Below, piece by piece: positions 41,777 through 52,730 of a DNA stretch of 64,000 nt (position 1 is its first letter; each line of letters begins with the position of its first letter). The position numbers and the translations under genes are program-made. The stretch is from Actinoplanes octamycinicus. Lineage in GTDB: Bacteria > Actinomycetota > Actinomycetes > Mycobacteriales > Micromonosporaceae. The notes beneath the pieces are model-generated. The model ran no database searches and had not been told where the DNA came from. It saw only the letters and a list, made by a program, of their open reading frames with translations. The stretch covers positions 8,723,501 through 8,787,500 of the forward strand of contig NZ_JACHNB010000001.1 of the NCBI RefSeq assembly GCF_014205225.1, read 5' to 3'.

Positions 41777-41782
41777 TAGGCT
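41777..41782 (+). promoter_or_regulatory. Probable -10 box of the four-gene FtsK/EccC-like cassette
   Basis: TAGGCT, as in the other promoters of this window, but here 37 nt before the GTG start. The leader would be about 30 nt and carry the AGGAGG ribosome site at 41806-41811. Confidence 0.5.
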
Positions 41783-41819
41783 GTGTCGCAAGTGGGTTGA
41801 GTTACAGGAGGCCGAACGG

Positions 41820-42080
41820 GTGGCCAGTGTCGCCGAGGTCAGAGCGGCTGTGGACGCCGCGCTCCAGCAGGTGAACGAGGGGCAGGCGGCGATACAGGCG
41901 GCTCGTGAGAAGCTCGGCGAGGCCCAGCAGAGCCTGGCCGCGGCGCTCGACGGCAGCGCGCACGACGCCGTGGACACGGCCAAGGCGTCGCTGTCGCAGG
42001 CCGATCAGCAGCTCGAGGAATGCCTGACCGCCACGCTGGTCGCGGTCGAGGCCGCCCAGACCTACACGGCGACGCTCTGA
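41820..42080 (+). CDS. Small helical-hairpin protein of the FtsK/EccC-like cassette
   Basis: An 86-residue protein predicted as two long helices: about 4-44 (VAEVRAAVDAALQQVNEGQA then AIQAAREKLGEAQQ) and 50-82, joined by a turn near DGSAHD. Size and helix-turn-helix hairpin form are like WXG100/ESX substrates, but no WXG motif is present. GTG 41820 follows AGGAGG by 8 nt. It is the first gene of four, 4 bp ahead of the next. A similar small-protein family (possibly DUF6244, from memory) is common in Micromonosporaceae. Confidence 0.75.
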   Translation: MASVAEVRAAVDAALQQVNEGQAAIQAAREKLGEAQQSLAAALDGSAHDAVDTAKASLSQADQQLEECLTATLVAVEAAQTYTATL

Positions 42081-42084
42081 CGCG

Positions 42085-42987
42085 ATGTCGCTGCTGCAGG
42101 AACTCGGCGCCCGGCTCCGGGCCGCCTCCGACGAGCTACCCGACGGTCTGGTCGTCGCCGCGCTGGAGAAACTGCGCAGCGCCACCGAGATCCTGAACTG
42201 GGTGCGCGAGGCGTCGGAGCACAAGATGGGCGTGCCCGAGCTCGGCAATGCCACCGAGCACGCGGAGCGCGCCGCCGCCGCGCTGCGTCTCGCGGAGGAC
42301 GCGATCGAGAGCTATCTGGCCGCGCTCGGGCTGGGCGGCGACCCGGGGCGCCCGCAGGGTCAGGACTGGCGCGCCGCGCTGCGACCGGACCCGGAGCCGG
42401 AGCGTCCCGCCGAGCCCGGCGGCCAGCCGCCGGTGGAGCGGCTCGGCCCGTGGTGGCAGGAGCGGGTCGCCCAGCTGACCGGCGAGCCCGTGCCCAAAGA
42501 TCAGAAGGAGTCCGGGCCGGACCGGGCGACCACCGCCGAGCTGCTGCGCCGGGTCGCCGCCGGGGTGCGGGCCGGGGACCGCGCCCGGCTCGGCCGGGAG
42601 CTGCACGCGGTGACCGCGTCGACCGGGCTCGGCCTGTCCGCGGTCACCCCGCCGGTGCTGCACCGGCTAGCCGGCGACCTGCTCGGGCACGAGCCCCGGC
42701 CGGAGGACGTGCCCCGGTTGCGGACCGCCGCCGAGAGCCGGGTCCGGGCGCTGCTGCCGGGCACCTCACCGGCCGTGCTGGAGACGCTGATCGACCGGAT
42801 CTGCCGGGTTCCGGCGCCGCAGCAGGGTCACCGGCCGGCCGGGCATCCGGCGGACAACGCGGTGACCGCGAGCGTGCTGACCGGGGTGTTGCTGGCCCGG
42901 CTGGGCCGGGACGCGGAGGCGCTCGACCCGGACGCGCCGGAGCCGGTCCGCCCGCCCCGCGCCGAGGCCGGTGAGCAGCGCCGATGA
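42085..42987 (+). CDS. Helical protein of unknown function, second gene of the FtsK/EccC-like cassette
   Basis: A 300-residue soluble protein. The N-terminal 85 residues are helical (LLQELGARLRAASDELP, NATEHAERAAAALRLAEDA) and resemble a helical-hairpin bundle. A Pro/Glu/Arg linker spans 90-150. A second helical part (about 150-280) contains RATTAELLRRVAAGVRAGD and TSPAVLETLIDRICRV. No catalytic motif, signal peptide or TM segment. Its location suggests a substrate, adaptor or chaperone for the ATPase encoded 39 bp downstream; this is inference. Confidence 0.8.
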   Translation: MSLLQELGARLRAASDELPDGLVVAALEKLRSATEILNWVREASEHKMGVPELGNATEHAERAAAALRLAEDAIESYLAALGLGGDPGRPQGQDWRAALRPDPEPERPAEPGGQPPVERLGPWWQERVAQLTGEPVPKDQKESGPDRATTAELLRRVAAGVRAGDRARLGRELHAVTASTGLGLSAVTPPVLHRLAGDLLGHEPRPEDVPRLRTAAESRVRALLPGTSPAVLETLIDRICRVPAPQQGHRPAGHPADNAVTASVLTGVLLARLGRDAEALDPDAPEPVRPPRAEAGEQRR

Positions 42988-43026
42988 TGCCACGGGGTTG
43001 GACAACTGCGACGATGCCGGCGGGTC

Positions 43027-45735
43027 ATGGCTGATTCCACCAAACAGCAGGTCATGGAGATCCGGGCCGGGCTGTCACACGCGCTCGGGGCCGCGGAGAC
43101 CGCTCTCGCCCGCGCCCAGCGGGAGGCGGACGCGGCGCTCGCGCGCCTCGACCGGATCACCGCGGCGGCCGGCAGCCGGCGGCGCAAGCTGGCCGAGGCG
43201 CGGGACAAGCGGCTGCGGTCGATCACCGAGTGGCACGACACCGAGCTGAGCGCGTTGTCCGGGGCGGCGGCCGGGGCCGCTGACCGGGCGGCGCCGGGCG
43301 CGGCCGGCGAGCCGTGGCACTCGTTCGAGGCGACGCCGTTGCCGCGGGCCGCGGAGCTGCGGGTCGGGCGGTTGCTGCTGCCCACCGCGCCGGGTCCGGC
43401 CGATCAGCCGGCCGAGCCGGGGCGGCCCTGGCAGTGGGACGCCTCGTCGGCCCCGCCGGAGTCGCCGGAGGTGCCGGCGCTGGTGGAGCTGCTCGACCAC
43501 GGGCACGTCGTGGTGCACGGCGACCGGAGACTCGGCGACGACGTGGTGGCCGGGCTGCTGCTGCGCGCGCTGGGCACCAGCGCGCCGGGCACCGTGCAGG
43601 TGATCGGCTACGACCCGGAGCACCTGGGGGGCGGGCTGGCCGGGTTCGCCGCGCTGGCCCCGGTCCGGGTGCTCACCTTCGTCCCGCCGAACGGGCTGGG
43701 CAGTCTCCTCGACGAGCTGGTCGAGCACGTCCGGCGGATCAACGAGACGGTCCTGGCCGGGGAGTTCTCGTCGCTGCGGGAGCTGCACGCGGCCACCAAG
43801 CGGCGGCCCGAGCCGTGGCGGGTGGCGGTGCTGCTCGGCGCCGGCGAGCTGAACCGGCACGAGCGCGTCCAGCTGGACCGGCTGCTGCGTACCGGCGCGG
43901 CCTGCGGCGTGCACCTGATCGTGCACGGGCTGGCCGTGGAGCCGGGTCCGGGGATCGAGTTCGTCACCGCGGCGCCCGGGGAGGAGGCGCGGATCGGCAG
44001 TGCCGGGGACCTTCCGGTCCGGCTGGATCCGGGCCCGCCGCCGGCGATCCTGACCGCCACCTGCCGGCAGATCGCCGAGGCGGTGGCCGCCGGCCCGGCC
44101 CCGGTGGCGCTGGACAGCCTGCTGCCGGATCCGGCGCAGGAGTGGCGGGAGAGTTCGGCGACCGGGTTGACCGCGCCGCTCGGCGACAGCCCGCAGGGCA
44201 CCCGGGTGCAGGTGACGCTCAGCGACTACCCGCCGCACGCGCTGATCGCCGGCCCGTCCGGCACCGGCAAGACCAACCTGATCTATGCCTGGATGGGCGC
44301 CCTGGCCGCCCGCTACTCCCCCGCCGAGCTGGCGTTCTACCTGCTCGACTTCAAGGAGGGGGTGTCCTTCGCCCGGTTCGCGCCGGGCCGCCGGGACCAG
44401 AGCTGGTTGCCGCACGTCCGGCTGGTCGGGGTGAACGTGAACACCGACCGGGAGTTCGGCCTGGCCCTGCTCCGGTTCCTCGGGGCCGAGCTGCGCCGCC
44501 GGGCGGACGCGGCGAAGCAGCACGAGGTGACCAACCTGGCCGAGCTGCGCGCCGAGGACCCGACCGGGGTGTGGCCGCGGATCGTCGCGGTGGTCGACGA
44601 GTTCCAGGTGCTGCTGGCCGGCCGGGACGCGGTCACCACCGAGGCCGTCGACCTGCTCGAGGACCTGGCCCGGCGGGGCCGGTCGCAGGGCATCCATCTG
44701 ATCCTGGCCAGCCAGGACATCTCCGGCATCGAGGCGCTGTGGGGCCGGCCGGCGCTGGTCGCCCAGTTCACCCTGCGGATCGCGCTGCCCCGGGCCCGCC
44801 GGGTGCTGGCCGAGCAGAACTCGGCGGCCGACTCGCTGCAGCGCTACCACGCGGTGGTCAACTCGGATTCCGGCGCGGCCGAGGCCAACCAGATCGTCCG
44901 GGTGCCGGCTGCCGGTGACCGGGAGCAGTGGAGCGCGTTGCAGCATCGGCTGTGGCGCAAGTTGCCGCCCGGCGAGCTGCCGCCCCGGCTGTTCGACGGT
45001 GACGTGCAGCCCAAGCTGGAGAACAGCCCGGACTTCCGGGCGCTGGTGGCGGAGGACTCGCCGGCCCCGGTGGCGCTGCTCGGCGAGACGATCGACGTGA
45101 TGTCCCGGTCGGCGCGGACCGTGCTGCGCCGCGCGCCGGGGCGCAACCTGGCGGTGCTCGGCACCCGGGTGGAGGAGGCGTGCGCGGTGCTGGCCACCGC
45201 CGGCCGGTCGCTCGCGGCGCAGTTCCAGCGGGACGGGGCGCGGTTCTCGATCGCCTGCTTCGATCAGGACGCCCAGTCGTACGCCGAAGCTCTGCACGCC
45301 CGGATCCCGGACTGCGGCTGGTACGACGCGTCGAACGTCGACTGGCTGCTGGAGGACGCCGCCGCCGAGTCGACCGCGGCCTGGCCCGCCGACCGCCCGC
45401 ATTTCCTCCTGCTCTACGCGGCGGACGCGCTGCCCGGCGGCAAGGCGGCGCTGGACCAGCTGCGGACGGTGCTGCGCCAGGGCCCGGAGCGGCGGCTGCA
45501 CGTGCTGGGCTGGTGGCGCGGGGCCGGGCTGCTGCGGGACACGCTCGGCGGGCAGGGTTCCCGGACCGACCCGATCGGCGCCTGGGTGGCGCTCGACGTG
45601 CACGGCAGCGAGCTGGCGCCGTACTATCCCGGGGCCGGCGCGCCGAACTGGTACCCGCGGCCGTGGCGGGCGCTGCATTTCGACCGCTCGGTGCACCGCG
45701 GCGCCGAGGTGATGATCCCCTACGGTGCCTCATGA
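43027..45735 (+). CDS. FtsK/SpoIIIE-domain ATPase with EccC-like triple-module layout
   Basis: A 902-residue soluble protein. An N-terminal coiled coil (about 8-80) precedes three RecA-like regions. Region 1 (about 150-300) has HGHVVVHGDRRLGDD at the P-loop position and VAVLLGAGELNRHE at the Walker B position. Region 2 (about 390-640) is a complete FtsK domain with GPSGTGKT at 409-416, LLDFKEGVSF, VVDEF near 522-526 and LILASQD. Region 3 (about 690-880) has GRNLAVLGTR at about 705 and FLLLYAADAL. Only the middle P-loop is intact. EccC motors of type VII secretion also carry serial FtsK-type modules, but with N-terminal TM helices that are absent here. The ATGA overlap with the next gene couples it to a membrane protein. 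Confidence 0.88.
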   Translation: MADSTKQQVMEIRAGLSHALGAAETALARAQREADAALARLDRITAAAGSRRRKLAEARDKRLRSITEWHDTELSALSGAAAGAADRAAPGAAGEPWHSFEATPLPRAAELRVGRLLLPTAPGPADQPAEPGRPWQWDASSAPPESPEVPALVELLDHGHVVVHGDRRLGDDVVAGLLLRALGTSAPGTVQVIGYDPEHLGGGLAGFAALAPVRVLTFVPPNGLGSLLDELVEHVRRINETVLAGEFSSLRELHAATKRRPEPWRVAVLLGAGELNRHERVQLDRLLRTGAACGVHLIVHGLAVEPGPGIEFVTAAPGEEARIGSAGDLPVRLDPGPPPAILTATCRQIAEAVAAGPAPVALDSLLPDPAQEWRESSATGLTAPLGDSPQGTRVQVTLSDYPPHALIAGPSGTGKTNLIYAWMGALAARYSPAELAFYLLDFKEGVSFARFAPGRRDQSWLPHVRLVGVNVNTDREFGLALLRFLGAELRRRADAAKQHEVTNLAELRAEDPTGVWPRIVAVVDEFQVLLAGRDAVTTEAVDLLEDLARRGRSQGIHLILASQDISGIEALWGRPALVAQFTLRIALPRARRVLAEQNSAADSLQRYHAVVNSDSGAAEANQIVRVPAAGDREQWSALQHRLWRKLPPGELPPRLFDGDVQPKLENSPDFRALVAEDSPAPVALLGETIDVMSRSARTVLRRAPGRNLAVLGTRVEEACAVLATAGRSLAAQFQRDGARFSIACFDQDAQSYAEALHARIPDCGWYDASNVDWLLEDAAAESTAAWPADRPHFLLLYAADALPGGKAALDQLRTVLRQGPERRLHVLGWWRGAGLLRDTLGGQGSRTDPIGAWVALDVHGSELAPYYPGAGAPNWYPRPWRALHFDRSVHRGAEVMIPYGAS

Positions 45736-46436
45736 GCGAACTGCAACCGGCCGACTTCGAGCGGGCCGACTACCGGACCGTCCTGCGCCGGCTGACCACG
45801 CTCGACCAGCGGGCCGCCGACCTGCGAGCCGAGGCGGTCGAGTGGCACGCCGAGCAGCGGGCGGCCGCCGACGAGCAGGTGGCGGCCGCCGAGGAGCAGG
45901 CCCGCGCGGCCCAGCGGGCGGTCCGCGCGGCGCAGCGTGACCTGGAGGAGGTCGACGCGCGGGCGGCCGGCCTGTGGGCGGAGTACGTGCACCGGGTCGG
46001 CCCGGTCGCCGAGCGGTTCGGCAAGCTGCCGCCGGCCAGCATCCCCCGGCAGCGGTCCGAGCTGGAGGCCGAGGACTACCTGGCCGAGGTGGAGAAAAAG
46101 GTGAAGTGGACGCCGCCGGCCCGGCCGATCACCTTCGGCGTCAAGGTGCTCTTCTGGATCTTCGGGCTGGCCGGGGGCATCGTCGGCGCCCTGCTGAACC
46201 AGGTGCTGCGGGACACCGGGGCGGTCTCCACCGGCGACTGGCACCAGGCGGCGCCGGTGGTGGCGCTGCTGGTGCTGCTGGCCTGCCCGGTGCTCGCCGT
46301 GGTCGGCGCGAAACTGGTGGCCGACCGGCGCAAGGTCGGCCTGGACACCGCGACCGTGGTCACCATCCTGGTGACCGGTCTGGTCACGGCGATGCTGCTG
46401 TTCACCGCCACGCAGTACGCGTCGGGCGGCCGCTAG
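45732..46436 (+). CDS. Coiled-coil membrane protein, fourth gene of the cassette
   Basis: A 234-residue protein. The first 90 residues are a charged coiled coil (LRRLTTLDQRAADLRAEA, QVAAAEEQARAAQRAVRAA). Three TM helices follow at about 137-162 (FGVKVLFWIFGLAGGIVGAL), 175-196 and 205-228. It overlaps the ATPase stop by 4 nt. It is an obvious candidate for the membrane anchor of the soluble ATPase through coiled-coil pairing, since both proteins carry one. Its stop codon shares the palindrome CTAG with the convergent small gene. Confidence 0.82.
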   Translation: MSELQPADFERADYRTVLRRLTTLDQRAADLRAEAVEWHAEQRAAADEQVAAAEEQARAAQRAVRAAQRDLEEVDARAAGLWAEYVHRVGPVAERFGKLPPASIPRQRSELEAEDYLAEVEKKVKWTPPARPITFGVKVLFWIFGLAGGIVGALLNQVLRDTGAVSTGDWHQAAPVVALLVLLACPVLAVVGAKLVADRRKVGLDTATVVTILVTGLVTAMLLFTATQYASGGR

Positions 46437-46618
46437 CGGGGTTTGGCCAGGCTGCGGCGGCGCTCGGCCTCCTCGACCAGGCCGGGCGGCACGTCCAGGT
46501 GGTCACCGGCGCCGTGCGCCTCGTCGTACTCCAGGTCGCCGCCGGATTCCCACTCGGGGCCGGCCTGCTCGCCCGGCGGGGCCAGGCGGGTGTCCGGCTC
46601 GTCGTTCGCGTCGGTCAT
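46433..46618 (-). CDS. Small acidic hypothetical protein
   Basis: A 61-residue soluble acidic protein (TDANDEPDTRLAPPGEQ, then HLDVPPGLVEEAERRR). Nearly all codons end in G or C, which supports a real gene. ATG 46618 is preceded by GAAGAC at close range. It is convergent with the cassette, both stops falling in CTAG (46433-46436), and divergent from the DUF72 gene. Function unknown. Confidence 0.6.
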   Translation of the reverse strand: MTDANDEPDTRLAPPGEQAGPEWESGGDLEYDEAHGAGDHLDVPPGLVEEAERRRSLAKPR

Positions 46619-46676
46619 GTCTTCGTTCTACCCCTGCCCCGGGCACAAAACCAGCGTTCCTGGGTATCCGGACAGA

Positions 46677-47417
46677 GTGCTGTGGATAGGAACGTCCGGA
46701 TGGCAGTACAAGGACTGGCGTGGTGGCCTCTACCCGGAGAAGCTGCCGCAGCGGCTCTGGCTGGAGCACTACGCGGGCCGGTACGCCACCGTCGAGGTGA
46801 ACAACGCGTTCTACCGGTTGCCCGAACGCACGACCTTCGAGCAGTGGCGGCAGCGTACCCCGGAGGGTTTCGTCGTGGCGGTGAAGATGAGCCGCTACCT
46901 GACCCACATCAAGCGGCTGCGCGAGCCGGCCGAGCCGGTGGCCCGGTTCCTGGACCGGGCGGCCGGGCTGGGCGACAAGCTCGGCCCGGTGCTGCTGCAG
47001 CTGCCGCCGAACCTTCGGGCTGACCTGGGCGCGCTGGACGAGACGCTGAGCCTGTTCCCCGGCGAGGTGCGGGTGGCGGTGGAGCCGCGGCATCCCAGCT
47101 GGTTCACGGCGGACTGCGAGAAGCTGCTGCGCCGCCACGGTGCGGCGCTGTGCTGGGCGGACCGGAAGGGCCGGCCGGTCACCCCGCTGTGGCGGACCGC
47201 CGATTTCGGCTATCTGCGGTTCCACGAGGGCGCTGCCCAGCCGTGGCCGCGTTACGGGCGGTCGGCGCTGCGGTCCTGGCTGGACCGGCTGGGCCCGGAC
47301 GGTTACGTCTACTTCAACAACGACCCGGGCGGGGCCGCGGTGATCGACGCGGACGCCTTCATCCGGCTGGCCGAACGCCGCGGGACGGCGGTCAGTCATC
47401 CCCCAGCAGTTCCATGA
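46677..47417 (+). CDS. DUF72-family protein (YecE-like)
   Basis: A 246-residue TIM-barrel-like protein. It begins LWIGTSGWQYKDWRGGLYPE and has YATVEVNNAFYRLP, FVVAVKMSRYLTHIKRL, LGPVLLQLPPN and YVYFNNDPGGAAV, all typical of DUF72. Activity is not established. The GTG start at 46677 places the conserved IGTSGW at the N-terminus. Its 3' end overlaps the convergent second DUF72 gene by 26 bp. Confidence 0.92.
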   Translation: MLWIGTSGWQYKDWRGGLYPEKLPQRLWLEHYAGRYATVEVNNAFYRLPERTTFEQWRQRTPEGFVVAVKMSRYLTHIKRLREPAEPVARFLDRAAGLGDKLGPVLLQLPPNLRADLGALDETLSLFPGEVRVAVEPRHPSWFTADCEKLLRRHGAALCWADRKGRPVTPLWRTADFGYLRFHEGAAQPWPRYGRSALRSWLDRLGPDGYVYFNNDPGGAAVIDADAFIRLAERRGTAVSHPPAVP

Positions 47418-48264
47418 AGGTTGAAGCATTCCGCTGCGCATAATCGGAGTAGCAATTGTTCATCAACACATGTGTGGTCTTGGCCTCATCGGCGAGCGTG
47501 CGCAGTTTCGGCACCCACTCTGCAAGTTCCTCGGTGGAATAGCGATAGAGGAACTTCTCGTGGATGTCGTGACTCGTCCACTTGTCGCTATGCCCGTGGA
47601 AACGCACCACTGCCAGATCGGCGGTCGCGGTCACCACCGGCGGCACCGACGACTTGTGCCCCTGCGGCATGTCGACCGCGACGAACGGCAGCCGGTGGTT
47701 GCGCAGGAAGTCGAGCGTCTCGTCCTGGTTGCCACCGTCGAACCAGGAGGCGTTGCGGAACTCGAAGACCGGCCGCAGCGGCTTGCACCGGGCGGCCACC
47801 TCCAGCAGGTACTCCTTGTTGGACTTGCGGATGCCGAACCAGGGCGGGAACTGGAAGAGCAGCGCCCCGAGCTTACCGGCCTCGGCGAGCGGGTCCAGCG
47901 CGGTCAGGAACCGGCTCCAGACCTCCTCGTACGTCTGCGGCGGCAGATCCTGCGGGTAGACGTTCTTCTTCGTGGTCTCCGGCCGCAGGTCCTTGTAGAG
48001 CGCGGACACCTTGGTCGGATGCCCGGTCAACAGGCTGAACGCCTTGATGTTGAAGGTGAAGTCGTCCGGCGTGCGCTGCGCCCACAACCTCGTGGTCTGC
48101 TCGTTGGGCGGGCCGTAGTAGGTGGCGTCCACCTCGACCAGCGGGAACTGCCGGGCGTAGTACGCCAGGCGTTTCTCCGGGTTGTCCGCGGTCGACGGGT
48201 ACCACCCCGACGCGATCAGCGTCTTGTCGGTCCAGCCACAGGTCCCGATCCGGATGTTCGCCAT
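47392..48264 (-). CDS. DUF72-family protein, second paralogue
   Basis: A 290-residue member with IRIGTCGWTDKTLIASGWYP, FPLVEVDATYYGPPNEQT, FTFNIKAFSLLTGHPTKV, LGALLFQFPPWFGI, VFEFRNASWF and HVLMNNCYSDYAQRNA. It is longer than and clearly different from the convergent 246-residue paralogue, so this is an old duplication or separate acquisition rather than a recent copy. Codon use at the 3' end is less GC-biased where the two genes overlap. Confidence 0.92.
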   Translation of the reverse strand: MANIRIGTCGWTDKTLIASGWYPSTADNPEKRLAYYARQFPLVEVDATYYGPPNEQTTRLWAQRTPDDFTFNIKAFSLLTGHPTKVSALYKDLRPETTKKNVYPQDLPPQTYEEVWSRFLTALDPLAEAGKLGALLFQFPPWFGIRKSNKEYLLEVAARCKPLRPVFEFRNASWFDGGNQDETLDFLRNHRLPFVAVDMPQGHKSSVPPVVTATADLAVVRFHGHSDKWTSHDIHEKFLYRYSTEELAEWVPKLRTLADEAKTTHVLMNNCYSDYAQRNASTFMELLGDD

Positions 48265-50438: not shown

Positions 50439-52730
50439 TCAGCCACCCGCGGTGAGCCGGCGGCCCACCGCGGCGATCAACCGGTCCAGCTCGGAGCCGA
50501 ACGGGTTGTCGTGCACCAGATAGGTCCAGGTCGCACTCGGCCGGACGATCTCCGCCCGGTCCGGCTGCCAGCCGTCGCTGAGGTCGACCTCCTCGAACGT
50601 CTCGATGGTCCGCTCCTCGACCTTGGTCAGCAGGTCCTGGAAGGCCGGCACCGCGGACCGGTGGAACTCGTCCAGCGGGTCCAGCTTGCCCAGCGCCCGC
50701 AGGTGCACGCCCTCCCGCACCTCGGACAGGTACGCCAGGTGGTCGGCCCAGAGCCGGTCCAGGTGGTAGAGCGCGATCGCCCGGGCCGAGTCGGAGAGCA
50801 CGTCCTCGTCGGTCTCCTTGGCCTTCTCCGACGACTTCTCCAGCAGCATGATCGCGGCCACCTCGGAGGTGAGCAGCCGCTCCCGGCGCTCGGCCAGCAG
50901 CAGCCGCTGCTGCTCGATCACCACGCTGTACCGCCAGGTGTTGCGGTGGATCTCGTGGTTGACGCCCTCGGCGACCCGCTGGGCGTGCTCGACCGCGTAG
51001 TCCACCTGCGGGTCGTGCACCACGCCGTCCATGTCCATCCGCGGCGAGGCCGGCAGGATGTCGCCGGCGTGCCGGGTGACCAGCTCGTCCTCCAGGCTGA
51101 CGAAGAACACCGAGGCGCCCGGGTCGCCCTGCCGGCCGGCCCGGCCACGCAGCTGGTCGTCGACCCGGCGGCTGTCGTGCCGGCCGGCGCCGATCACGTA
51201 GAGCCCGCCCAGCTCGACCACCCGGTCCCGGTCGGCCTCGTCGCTGCCGCCCAGCCGGATGTCGACACCGCGGCCGGCCATCTGGGTGGAGACGGTGACC
51301 GCGCCGATCGCGCCGGCCTCCGCGATGATCGCCGCCTCCTCGGCGTCGTTCTTCGCGTTCAGCACGTTGCACGGCACGCCGGCCTTGGCCAGCTGCGCGG
51401 CGAGCGTCTCGGAGGCCTGCACGTCCAGGGTCCCGATCAGCACCGGGCGACCCTTGTCGTGCGCGATCTTGATCTCCTCGACCAGCGCCTCGTCGCGGGT
51501 CTCGTGCGCCGAGTAGATCCGGTCCGGGTCGTCCTCGCGGATGTTCGGCGTGTTCGAGGGCACCACCGCGACCTCGAGCTTGAAGTACTCCCGGAGCTGC
51601 TCGCCGACGTGCACCGCGGTCGCGGTCATCCCGCAGACGGTGGCGTAGAGCGCGATGTACGCCTGCACCGTGATGGTGTTCAGCACCTCGCCCTCGGCGG
51701 TCGCGGACAGCCCCTCCTTGGCCTCCACGGCCGCCTGCAGGCCGTCCGGCCAGCGACGGCGCTGGGCCACCCGGCCGCGCATCTCGTCGATCAGCTCGAC
51801 GCCGCCGTTGCGGACGATGTAGTCCACGTCGCGGCGCAGCAGGGCGTGCGCGTGCAGCGCCACGTTCACCGCGGACAGGTGCTCGACCTGGTCGTCCGCG
51901 TACAGGTCGACGCCGCCGAGCTGCTCCTCGACGTTCTTCAGGCCGGCCTCGGTGAAGGCCACGCTGCGGCCGTCCTCGGCCACCTCGTAGTCCTTGCCCT
52001 TGCGCAGCGTCTTGACCAGCGCGGCGGCCTCGTGCACCGGGTCGCTCTCGGTCGACGTCGAACCGGCCAGCACCATCGGCACCCGGGCCTCGTCGATCAG
52101 GATCGAGTCGGCCTCGTCGACGATCGCGGTGGCCAGGTCGCGCTGCACCCGGTCGGCCACGTCGGTGACCAGCTGGTCGCGCAGGTAGTCGAAACCGGCC
52201 TCGGAGACCGACACGTAGGTGACGTCGGCGGCGTACGCCTCGCGCCGCTCCTCCGGGGTCATCGACTCGGTCACCGAGCCGACGGTCAGGCCGAGCAGCG
52301 TGTAGATCGGCTCCATCCACTCGGCGTCGCGCTTGGCCAGGTAGTCGTTGACGGTCAGCACGTGCACCGGGCCGTTGCCCAGGCGGGTGTGGCCGTACGC
52401 GGCGATCGTGGCGGTGAGCGTCTTGCCCTCACCGGTGGCCATCTCGGCGACCCGGCCGTCGAGCAGGGCCATCGCGCCGAGCAGCTGGACGTCGTACGGC
52501 CGCTGGCCGATCGCGCGGAACGCCGCCTCCCGGCCGATCGCGCAGATCTCGGTATAGTCGGAGGCCTCGCGGGCGGCGTCGGTCAGCGCCGCGTCGTCCA
52601 GCTCCTTCAGCGCCTCCTCGCGGGCCTCGATCGGCTCCAGGCGCTTCGACAGCGGGCCGAGGTCCACAGTCGTGCCCGGGCGCTGCAAAAACTTGCGGAA
52701 TCGGTTCTTGAATCGCTGCGACACACCCAT
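50439..52730 (-). CDS. secA2: Accessory preprotein translocase ATPase SecA2
   Basis: A 763-residue SecA ATPase, shorter than housekeeping SecA1 (usually above 900). Motifs: ATGEGKTLTATIAA (Walker A), VLTVNDYLAKRDAEWM, VDEADSILIDEARVP (DEAD-like), STQMAGRGVDIRLGG and QLRGRAGRQGDPG. The C-terminal zinc finger/SecB tail of SecA1 is absent. Actinobacterial SecA2 drives export of a small set of proteins together with the canonical SecYEG channel. ATG 52730 gives MGVSQRFKNRFRKFLQRPG, the usual N-terminus. It is divergent from the STAS-HATPase gene. Confidence 0.95.
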   Translation of the reverse strand: MGVSQRFKNRFRKFLQRPGTTVDLGPLSKRLEPIEAREEALKELDDAALTDAAREASDYTEICAIGREAAFRAIGQRPYDVQLLGAMALLDGRVAEMATGEGKTLTATIAAYGHTRLGNGPVHVLTVNDYLAKRDAEWMEPIYTLLGLTVGSVTESMTPEERREAYAADVTYVSVSEAGFDYLRDQLVTDVADRVQRDLATAIVDEADSILIDEARVPMVLAGSTSTESDPVHEAAALVKTLRKGKDYEVAEDGRSVAFTEAGLKNVEEQLGGVDLYADDQVEHLSAVNVALHAHALLRRDVDYIVRNGGVELIDEMRGRVAQRRRWPDGLQAAVEAKEGLSATAEGEVLNTITVQAYIALYATVCGMTATAVHVGEQLREYFKLEVAVVPSNTPNIREDDPDRIYSAHETRDEALVEEIKIAHDKGRPVLIGTLDVQASETLAAQLAKAGVPCNVLNAKNDAEEAAIIAEAGAIGAVTVSTQMAGRGVDIRLGGSDEADRDRVVELGGLYVIGAGRHDSRRVDDQLRGRAGRQGDPGASVFFVSLEDELVTRHAGDILPASPRMDMDGVVHDPQVDYAVEHAQRVAEGVNHEIHRNTWRYSVVIEQQRLLLAERRERLLTSEVAAIMLLEKSSEKAKETDEDVLSDSARAIALYHLDRLWADHLAYLSEVREGVHLRALGKLDPLDEFHRSAVPAFQDLLTKVEERTIETFEEVDLSDGWQPDRAEIVRPSATWTYLVHDNPFGSELDRLIAAVGRRLTAGG

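Follow-up and report, generated by a model that had tools for sequence, protein, structure and literature searches.

The 64,000-nucleotide stretch of the Actinoplanes octamycinicus genome analyzed here (hereafter the window; contig NZ_JACHNB010000001.1, positions 8,723,501 to 8,787,500) contains a cassette of four genes, denoted g1 to g4, which encode, in that order, proteins of 86, 300, 902 and 234 amino acids (aa). All four genes lie on the forward strand, with intergenic gaps of 4 and 39 nucleotides followed by a 4-nucleotide overlap of g3 and g4. A check of the open reading frames in the DNA confirmed the genes, sizes, starts, gaps and overlap given in the initial annotation, which was made from the sequence alone and likened the cassette to a split type VII secretion motor or, alternatively, a membrane-tethered DNA pump. 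The evidence presented below supports the identification of g3 as an EccC-like ATPase without transmembrane (TM) helices and without the fourth ATPase module, and of g4 as a membrane coiled-coil protein; g1 is predicted to be a helical hairpin, and g2 to begin with one.

Layout and conservation of the cassette

The genome is a single contig of 10.28 Mb, with the cassette at 8.77 Mb. The GC content at the third codon position of the cassette genes is 0.91-0.97 and, in 59 pairwise comparisons (59 of the 62 g1 copies), the differences at the first, second and third codon positions of g1 number 943, 680 and 2150, a third-position excess that fits purifying selection. The TAGGCT hexamer noticed earlier ahead of g1, a possible -10 element, is indeed present, and 22 of the 58 relatives with readable upstream DNA, among the same 62 copies, carry it unchanged ahead of g1.

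The search for relatives matched at least 596 stretches and yielded at least 580 relatives, of which the best 80 loci were analyzed; the best g3 segment is 95% identical to that of Actinoplanes liguriensis and 89% identical to that of A. regularis. The genes g1, g2, g3 and g4 occur together in 53 of the 80 loci, and eight more (Catellatospora, Longispora and others) have all four preceded by a DUF4126 gene. Thus, the gene order, the conservation of which across genera had been proposed as a check, is kept in 61 of the 80 loci, with 16 genus names among them, all of which we take to belong to Micromonosporaceae; such co-occurrence is more than expected by chance. Two further loci contain g1-g2-g3, with g4 not detected, and four are interrupted by a contig end. 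The remaining 13 represent a second type, with DUF4126, a 440-aa membrane protein, g3 and g4, in which g1 and g2 were not found. The DUF4126 and 440-aa-protein loci indicate that the cassette is modular and that its partners change. One locus of the second arrangement, with the 440-aa protein in place of g1/g2 behind the DUF4126 gene, lies in the window's own genome (G000:C1:717000-736000; L042). In Glycomyces terrestris (L130), g1-g2-g3 are followed by an unassigned 240-aa gene in the place of g4, and in Micromonospora sp. BL4 (L085), a single 1193-aa frame is called in the place of g2 and g3, which could reflect a gene fusion, an effect of the called start or an error in the sequence.

Within the genus, a match was detected in all 23 sampled genomes (G001-G023; E of 3.4e-272 or better). 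In the phylum sample, 2 of the 119 genomes matched at E <= 1e-35, namely, the window's own and one of the same order, and an order-level sample queried with a relative from genome G035 gave matches in 25 of 81 genomes at E <= 1e-45, the window's own included. No relative covering 80% of g3 was found in 177 plasmid records or in 142 phage records, and the 80 relatives kept of the 172 on viral contigs are all partial, the best one spanning residues 360-758. The possibility that the window's copy is cargo of a mobile element was rejected because 61 of the 80 loci share the order, in many cases with genes of matching lengths in front. The cassette appears to be a fixed part of the chromosomes of these bacteria.

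The window's own genome encodes three g3-type proteins: that of the window, one with 57% identity to it and one with 39% identity. The last of these, paralog III (L043, G000:C1:1423000-1442000), lies near genes for a VirB4-like AAA_10 ATPase and an M23 peptidase; its partner, of 231 aa, shows three TM peaks, and a g1-type hairpin stands behind it. The order of the ATPase, peptidase, g3-type and partner genes in another locus (L243) resembles this one. In genome G023, the paralog at the second type of locus (L050:7318-10101) differs in that the Walker A lysine is replaced by R, so that ATPase activity may be lost.

Table 1. Features of the cassette, in window coordinates
Feature	Position	Strand	Evidence
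TAGGCT, possible -10 element	41777..41782	+	sequence; upstream DNA of relatives
AGGAGG, ribosome-binding site of g1	41806..41811	+	sequence
g1, 86-aa predicted helical hairpin with LxG-like hinge L43-D44-G45	41820..42080	+	GTG start; 62 copies found
g1 C-terminal Y-x-x-x-L, residues 82-86	42063..42077	+	62/62 copies
g2, 300 aa: hairpin at the N-terminus, then a variable linker and a helical C-terminal domain	42085..42987	+
g2 N-terminal hairpin, residues 1-82	42085..42330	+	hhalign, invariant columns, model
g2 C-terminal helical domain, about residues 119-280	42439..42924	+	AlphaFold2
g3, 902-aa EccC-like ATPase without TM helices	43027..45735	+	matches, hydropathy, model
g3 N-terminal single long helix, residues 2-88	43030..43290	+	model
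g3 degenerate RecA-like region, about residues 105-360, like EccC stalk/DUF part	43339..44106	+
g3 active FtsK-type module D1, residues 360-656	44104..44994	+
g3 Walker A GPSGTGKT, residues 409-416	44251..44274	+	K415, T416 in 52/52
g3 Walker B, residues 519-526, ending DEF 524-526	44581..44604	+	D524, E525, F526 in 52/52
g3 degenerate RecA-like module D2, residues 705-860	45139..45606	+	model; no GK[ST] at presumed P-loop place
g4, 234-aa coiled-coil protein, three TM helices	45732..46436	+	hydropathy; family counts
g4 three TM segments, peaks 137, 173, 209	46140..46412	+	hydropathy scan

The g3 ATPase and the g4 membrane protein

The predicted structure of g3 has a single long helix at the N-terminus, followed by a degenerate RecA-like region, the active module D1 and the degenerate module D2. 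The key Walker residues of D1 (Table 1) are invariant among the aligned homologs (51 of the 65 listed relatives and the window sequence), and no GK[ST] is found at the P-loop equivalents of the two outer regions, at places chosen by eye, in agreement with the initial annotation that assigned an intact P-loop to the middle module only. The first outer region matches the stalk/DUF part of EccC, and the second is modeled as an alternating strand-helix module that falls within whole-chain matches to EccC/EssC, so that the RecA-like fold anticipated for the outer regions is supported by the predicted structure together with the EccC matches. EccC is the best whole-chain match of g3, favored both by Foldseek and by PDB sequence matches. 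No named family was found for g3 in PADLOC, NCBIfam or Pfam: the EccC matches fall far under the cut-offs (for the EccCa model, 90.4 bits against 509.15), and the PADLOC matches span just the common ATPase module. A hydropathy scan detects no TM peak in g1, g2 or g3, and none in 64 of 67 related g3 proteins. Related ATPases adjoin WXG100 or WXG100-like proteins.

The fold and motifs of D1 are shared with the FtsK/SpoIIIE DNA translocases, and a membrane-tethered motor of this type, with a part in the segregation of chromosomes, in sporulation or in the uptake of DNA, would be the counterpart of the DNA pump considered initially. We consider this alternative improbable because the Foldseek and PDB matches favor EccC and because the FtsK gamma domain is not among the ten Pfam families listed for g3 at E <= 1; furthermore, g3 differs from these translocases in lacking their N-terminal TM region and in having two extra degenerate modules, the genome has an FtsK-type gene of its own, and the hairpin partners would be left unexplained.

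The three TM helices originally attributed to g4 were recovered by the hydropathy scan and, among the g4 proteins of at least 200 aa, 49 of 53 have three TM peaks and 4 of 53 have two.

Sister cassettes and the hairpin proteins

Related ATPases are found in at least three other kinds of cassettes. In one, labeled f15 (L237, L239 and L240), a g1-type 86-aa hairpin and a second hairpin of 81-87 aa accompany the ATPase and a coiled-coil protein; another f15 locus, on a short contig (L031), has one hairpin only. The Hsp70 cassettes (L037, L044, L045, L241 and L242) encode, after a TPR protein and Hsp70, a hairpin, the ATPase and a coiled-coil protein whose single TM peak is C-terminal. The Hsp70 was identified by Pfam in L044 (genome G035) and in L037, on a plasmid of Rhodococcus pseudokoreensis. 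It was detected by phmmer in L242 and, in fragmentary form, in L241; in L045 (genome G033) it was recognized by eye. The plasmid cassette also encodes GrpE, and its TPR protein carries a DnaJ domain; the TPR proteins of G035 and G033 have no Pfam DnaJ match. Behind the hairpin of the plasmid cassette (L037:10713-11531) lies a gene for a 272-aa protein without a Pfam match, which is perhaps an effector; by eye, its N-terminal portion is helical and its C-terminus forms a domain apart.

The third kind, the WXG100 cassettes, includes that of Caballeronia (L038; WXG100 match with E of 3.6e-7), with CARF, VWA, phosphatase and kinase genes, that of Deinococcus (L039), with two WXG100-like proteins and a tail-anchored coiled-coil protein, and that of Helicobacter sp. 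(L246; WXG100 E of 4.6e-5), with a WHH/colicin-DNase protein and a SUKH protein; others were detected in Rhodococcus (L040) and in genome G057 (L238). Only one of the six WXG100-like proteins, that of Caballeronia, passes the Pfam WXG100 cut-off of 27.3 bits. No separate coiled-coil TM partner was found in the scanned Helicobacter and Caballeronia stretches. The Helicobacter locus, with the WXG100-like, WHH nuclease, SUKH and ATPase genes (L246:1438-10133), is on a plasmid, and a 628-aa neighbor shows Hsp70/actin-like motifs by eye and no Pfam match.

In an unrooted tree of D1 modules, 13 g3-type ATPases (99/94) group with five Hsp70-cassette ATPases (96/91), and these adjoin five WXG100-cassette ATPases; a 96/90 branch separates all 23 from seven EccC-type sequences, named by length and match, and one FtsK. 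The tree contains 31 of the 32 intended sequences; one further protein of the window's genome (844 aa), which gave no match, was left out. The WXG100-cassette ATPases do not form one clade (two changes), and the exact placement of the long branches, that is, FtsK, Deinococcus, Helicobacter, which has an odd make-up, and one EccC, is unsure. In this tree, g3 groups with stand-alone WXG100-EssC-like modules, apart from the EccC-type ATPases.

In 52 full-length non-redundant g1 copies (of 55), G45 is invariant, and position 43, where, in our alignment of the hinge, WXG100 proteins have W, is L in 45, V in 6 and T in 1, so that g1 lacks the W-x-G hinge. With 13.0 bits, g1 is below the Pfam WXG100 (PF06013) cut-off, and this family was matched at E <= 1 by 5 of the 14 g1-family hairpins, with the best value of 0.013. 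These 14 hairpins align over 86 residues with gaps at the N-terminus only and with G45 and A61 invariant. When their profile was compared with 177635 PDB sequences, ESAT-6 came out on top (E of 5.6e-4), followed by a dynactin coiled coil (5.8e-3); direct hhalign comparison of the g1-type hairpins with WXG100 sets was negative. By eye, all 11 fully read hairpins of the f15, Hsp70 and paralog III cassettes end in [YF]-x-x-x-[LI], and in 5 of the 6 WXG100-like proteins of the WXG100 cassettes a tyrosine lies three or four positions from the end.

DUF6244 and the exonuclease VII small subunit were each matched by 7 of the 14 g1-family hairpins, the best DUF6244 value being 7.5e-5. A DUF6244 search gave no match in 12 genomes, and none in the control genomes either. 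The identification of g1 as the exonuclease VII small subunit was rejected given the weak, partial match and the lack of a large subunit among the flanking genes scanned.

In hhalign comparisons, g1 aligns with the f15 hairpin (E of 3.1e-13), with the paralog III hairpin (2e-8) and, more weakly, with the Hsp70-cassette hairpins (E of 1.6e-4, probability P of 51). The second f15 hairpin connects the two proteins of the window, matching the N-terminus of g2 (E of 1.4e-5, P 80), g1 (E of 2.4e-4, P 44) and a wider g1 profile (E of 2.6e-6, P 89). The direct match between g1 and g2 is weak (P 8.4 and 6.4), and g2 scores P 15.9 against the N-terminal helix of g3, so that an effect of helix composition is possible. 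Among the controls, each of the seven comparisons made with reversed profiles gave a lower probability than its true counterpart, and two sets of column-shuffled profiles reached unexplained scores of 128.3 and 127.6. Via the sister cassettes, the hairpins of g1 and g2 look related in sequence. In g2 (44 of 51 relatives and the window sequence), Y77 and G82 are invariant in all 45 sequences; the AlphaFold2 model has helices at 20-45 and 50-80 and a C-terminal domain with pLDDT mostly above 90. No fold is given to this domain, as Foldseek finds nothing for it at E <= 0.001 and the VIA rows fall, for the most part, on the hairpin of g2. By analogy, g1 and g2 look like a pair in which one partner has gained a domain; PPE or Esp proteins and their small partners are in a comparable relation.

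Published modules and possible function

Stand-alone or mobile modules combining WXG100 proteins with EssC/YueA-like ATPases have already been published (PMC3482391, PMC11090510, PMC4978471). The lineages listed in one such account do not include actinobacteria. Bell et al. 2024 (PMC11090510; CoCoNuT extension), who credit Anantharaman 2012 for the stand-alone copies, describe EssC homologs with three ATPase domains, the central one alone predicted to be active, and an N-terminal coiled coil instead of TM helices, next to two WXG100 proteins, one of them without the motif. This resembles the cassette, in which the middle FtsK-type domain alone is active, a coiled-coil-like N-terminal helix replaces the TM helices and the partners are small hairpins. 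The 'WXG100 secretion system' of H. pylori in PMC4978471, with a DnaK homolog, FtsK and an HNH nuclease, is similarly reminiscent of the Hsp70 link of the sister cassettes. Thus, the general kind, a stand-alone three-module EssC-like ATPase, is known, if little studied. Compared with these modules, the Micromonosporaceae cassette is chromosomal, with the same order throughout; its g1 lacks the tryptophan and is below the WXG100 cut-off; a helical domain extends the second hairpin within one protein; the three-TM coiled-coil protein is separate; and genes of the toxin, immunity, VWA, kinase and Hsp70 kinds were not observed in it. What is new here is the conservation in Micromonosporaceae, the WXG-less hairpin with its glycine hinge and Y-x-x-x-L end, the fused second hairpin and the separate three-TM protein. 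No description of this cassette was found in the literature searched, mostly non-subscription papers, with Micromonospora as the sole member genus named in the searches.

Among the type VII secretion systems proper (T7SSa-T7SSj), those surveyed in PMC11217815 (T7SSc-j) each have a membrane-bound ATPase with four NTPase domains. The stalk/DUF part, the order of modules and the best whole-chain structure and sequence matches of g3 are those of EccC/EssC, whereas g3 lacks TM helices and has three modules instead of four. Likewise, g1 resembles WXG100 proteins and LXG-associated helical proteins (Laps), some of the latter being described as having the WXG100 fold but no WXG motif (PMC3935865, PMC11217815), in size, inferred hairpin, glycine hinge and a conserved aromatic residue near the C-terminus, but has L (V or T in some) for W. 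The type VII signal being YxxxD/E (PMC3935865), the Y-x-x-x-L signal of g1 differs.

We tentatively favor, as the predicted function of the cassette, a minimal ATP-driven protein translocase for the g1/g2 hairpin pair, with export as the preferred, still putative, role. We infer the following course of events. Like the FtsK and EccC ATPases, g3 would form a ring that the coiled coils of g4 bring to the inner side of the membrane, standing in for the missing TM helices. g1 and the hairpin of g2 would make an Esx-like or PE/PPE-like pair, the Y-x-x-x-[LI] ends of which may dock on the degenerate D2, in the same manner as Esx C-terminal signals are described as contacting the EccC/EssC ATPase domains (PMC11217815). 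Docking would switch on D1, and the ring would thread the pair, or a cargo represented by the C-terminal domain of g2, into or across the membrane. The cassette would then represent a branch of the stand-alone WXG100-EssC-like modules that has become fixed in the chromosome. More doubtful, and best viewed as a possibility, is the broader proposal that the cassette is an additional, minimal subtype of type VII-like translocase that belongs to the core of Micromonosporaceae, in which a soluble EccC ring on a separate three-TM protein exports or inserts a WXG-less Y-x-x-x-[LI] pair, derived from mobile toxin-delivery modules by loss of the toxin, immunity and chaperone genes.

Three observations weigh against secretion. 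No EccD gene lies near the cassette, the only two EccD genes found in the genome being located at 3.50 and 1.44 Mb; no channel gene was found; and none of the four scanned f15 coiled-coil partners has a TM peak. EccB, EccE, MycP and EsaB/YukD are absent from the Pfam matches (E <= 1e-5) of 10 flanking genes, in which no dedicated search for them was made. A standard ESX locus, already discounted in the initial annotation, is rejected given the location of both EccD genes. As far as the ATPase is concerned, the split type VII motor proposed there is well supported; its kind was already in print, and the TM partner is not universal. The lack of a channel gene and of TM partners in f15 keeps alive a non-secretory role, in which an EccC-like ring, cytosolic or attached to the membrane, would remodel the hairpin pair without exporting anything, perhaps serving within the cell as a switch in stress or defense, with chaperones in some relatives. 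This is a serious alternative that we rate somewhat lower than translocation. It is favored by the Hsp70 and TPR proteins of the sister cassettes (by Pfam in G035, by phmmer in G049 and G047, Hsp70 by eye in G033), by the full chaperone set, Hsp70, DnaJ-TPR and GrpE, of the Rhodococcus plasmid and by the gene neighborhood in Caballeronia, whereas the TM partner of the window's own group and the WXG100-like proteins and nuclease/SUKH pair next to related ATPases point to export. Chaperones may also load such motors, as suggested by the Hsp70 sister cassettes. Finally, g3 might be an accessory motor that acts in trans, supplying g1 and g2 to ESX channels encoded elsewhere in the genome. ATPases of EccC size adjoin the two EccD loci of this genome, and paralog III is about 10 kb from one of these loci; however, the cassette is megabases away from both, and the genes read between paralog III and that locus look like housekeeping genes by eye, making this explanation very unlikely.

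Should the translocase prediction hold, the contrast with published type VII systems, in which the ATPase itself is anchored in the membrane, would be instructive: an anchor on a separate chain, together with WXG-less hairpins, would allow one to ask what the minimal working type VII motor is, and would show whether any protein is exported by the stand-alone WXG100-EssC modules, which are poorly studied. Many laboratories work on antibiotic producers of the Micromonosporaceae, so the question is testable.

Among the 10 flanking genes, Pfam identifies one for a Clp-type ATPase; those downstream of the cassette include two with DUF72, one for a zinc-finger protein of the DksA/TraR type and one of the SecA type. 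The DUF72 genes, which adjoin the cassette, lie on opposite strands with overlapping ends (window 46590-48264). The SecA-type gene, on the other strand about 4 kb from the cassette (window 50439-52730), encodes a protein of 763 aa, which is short for a SecA.

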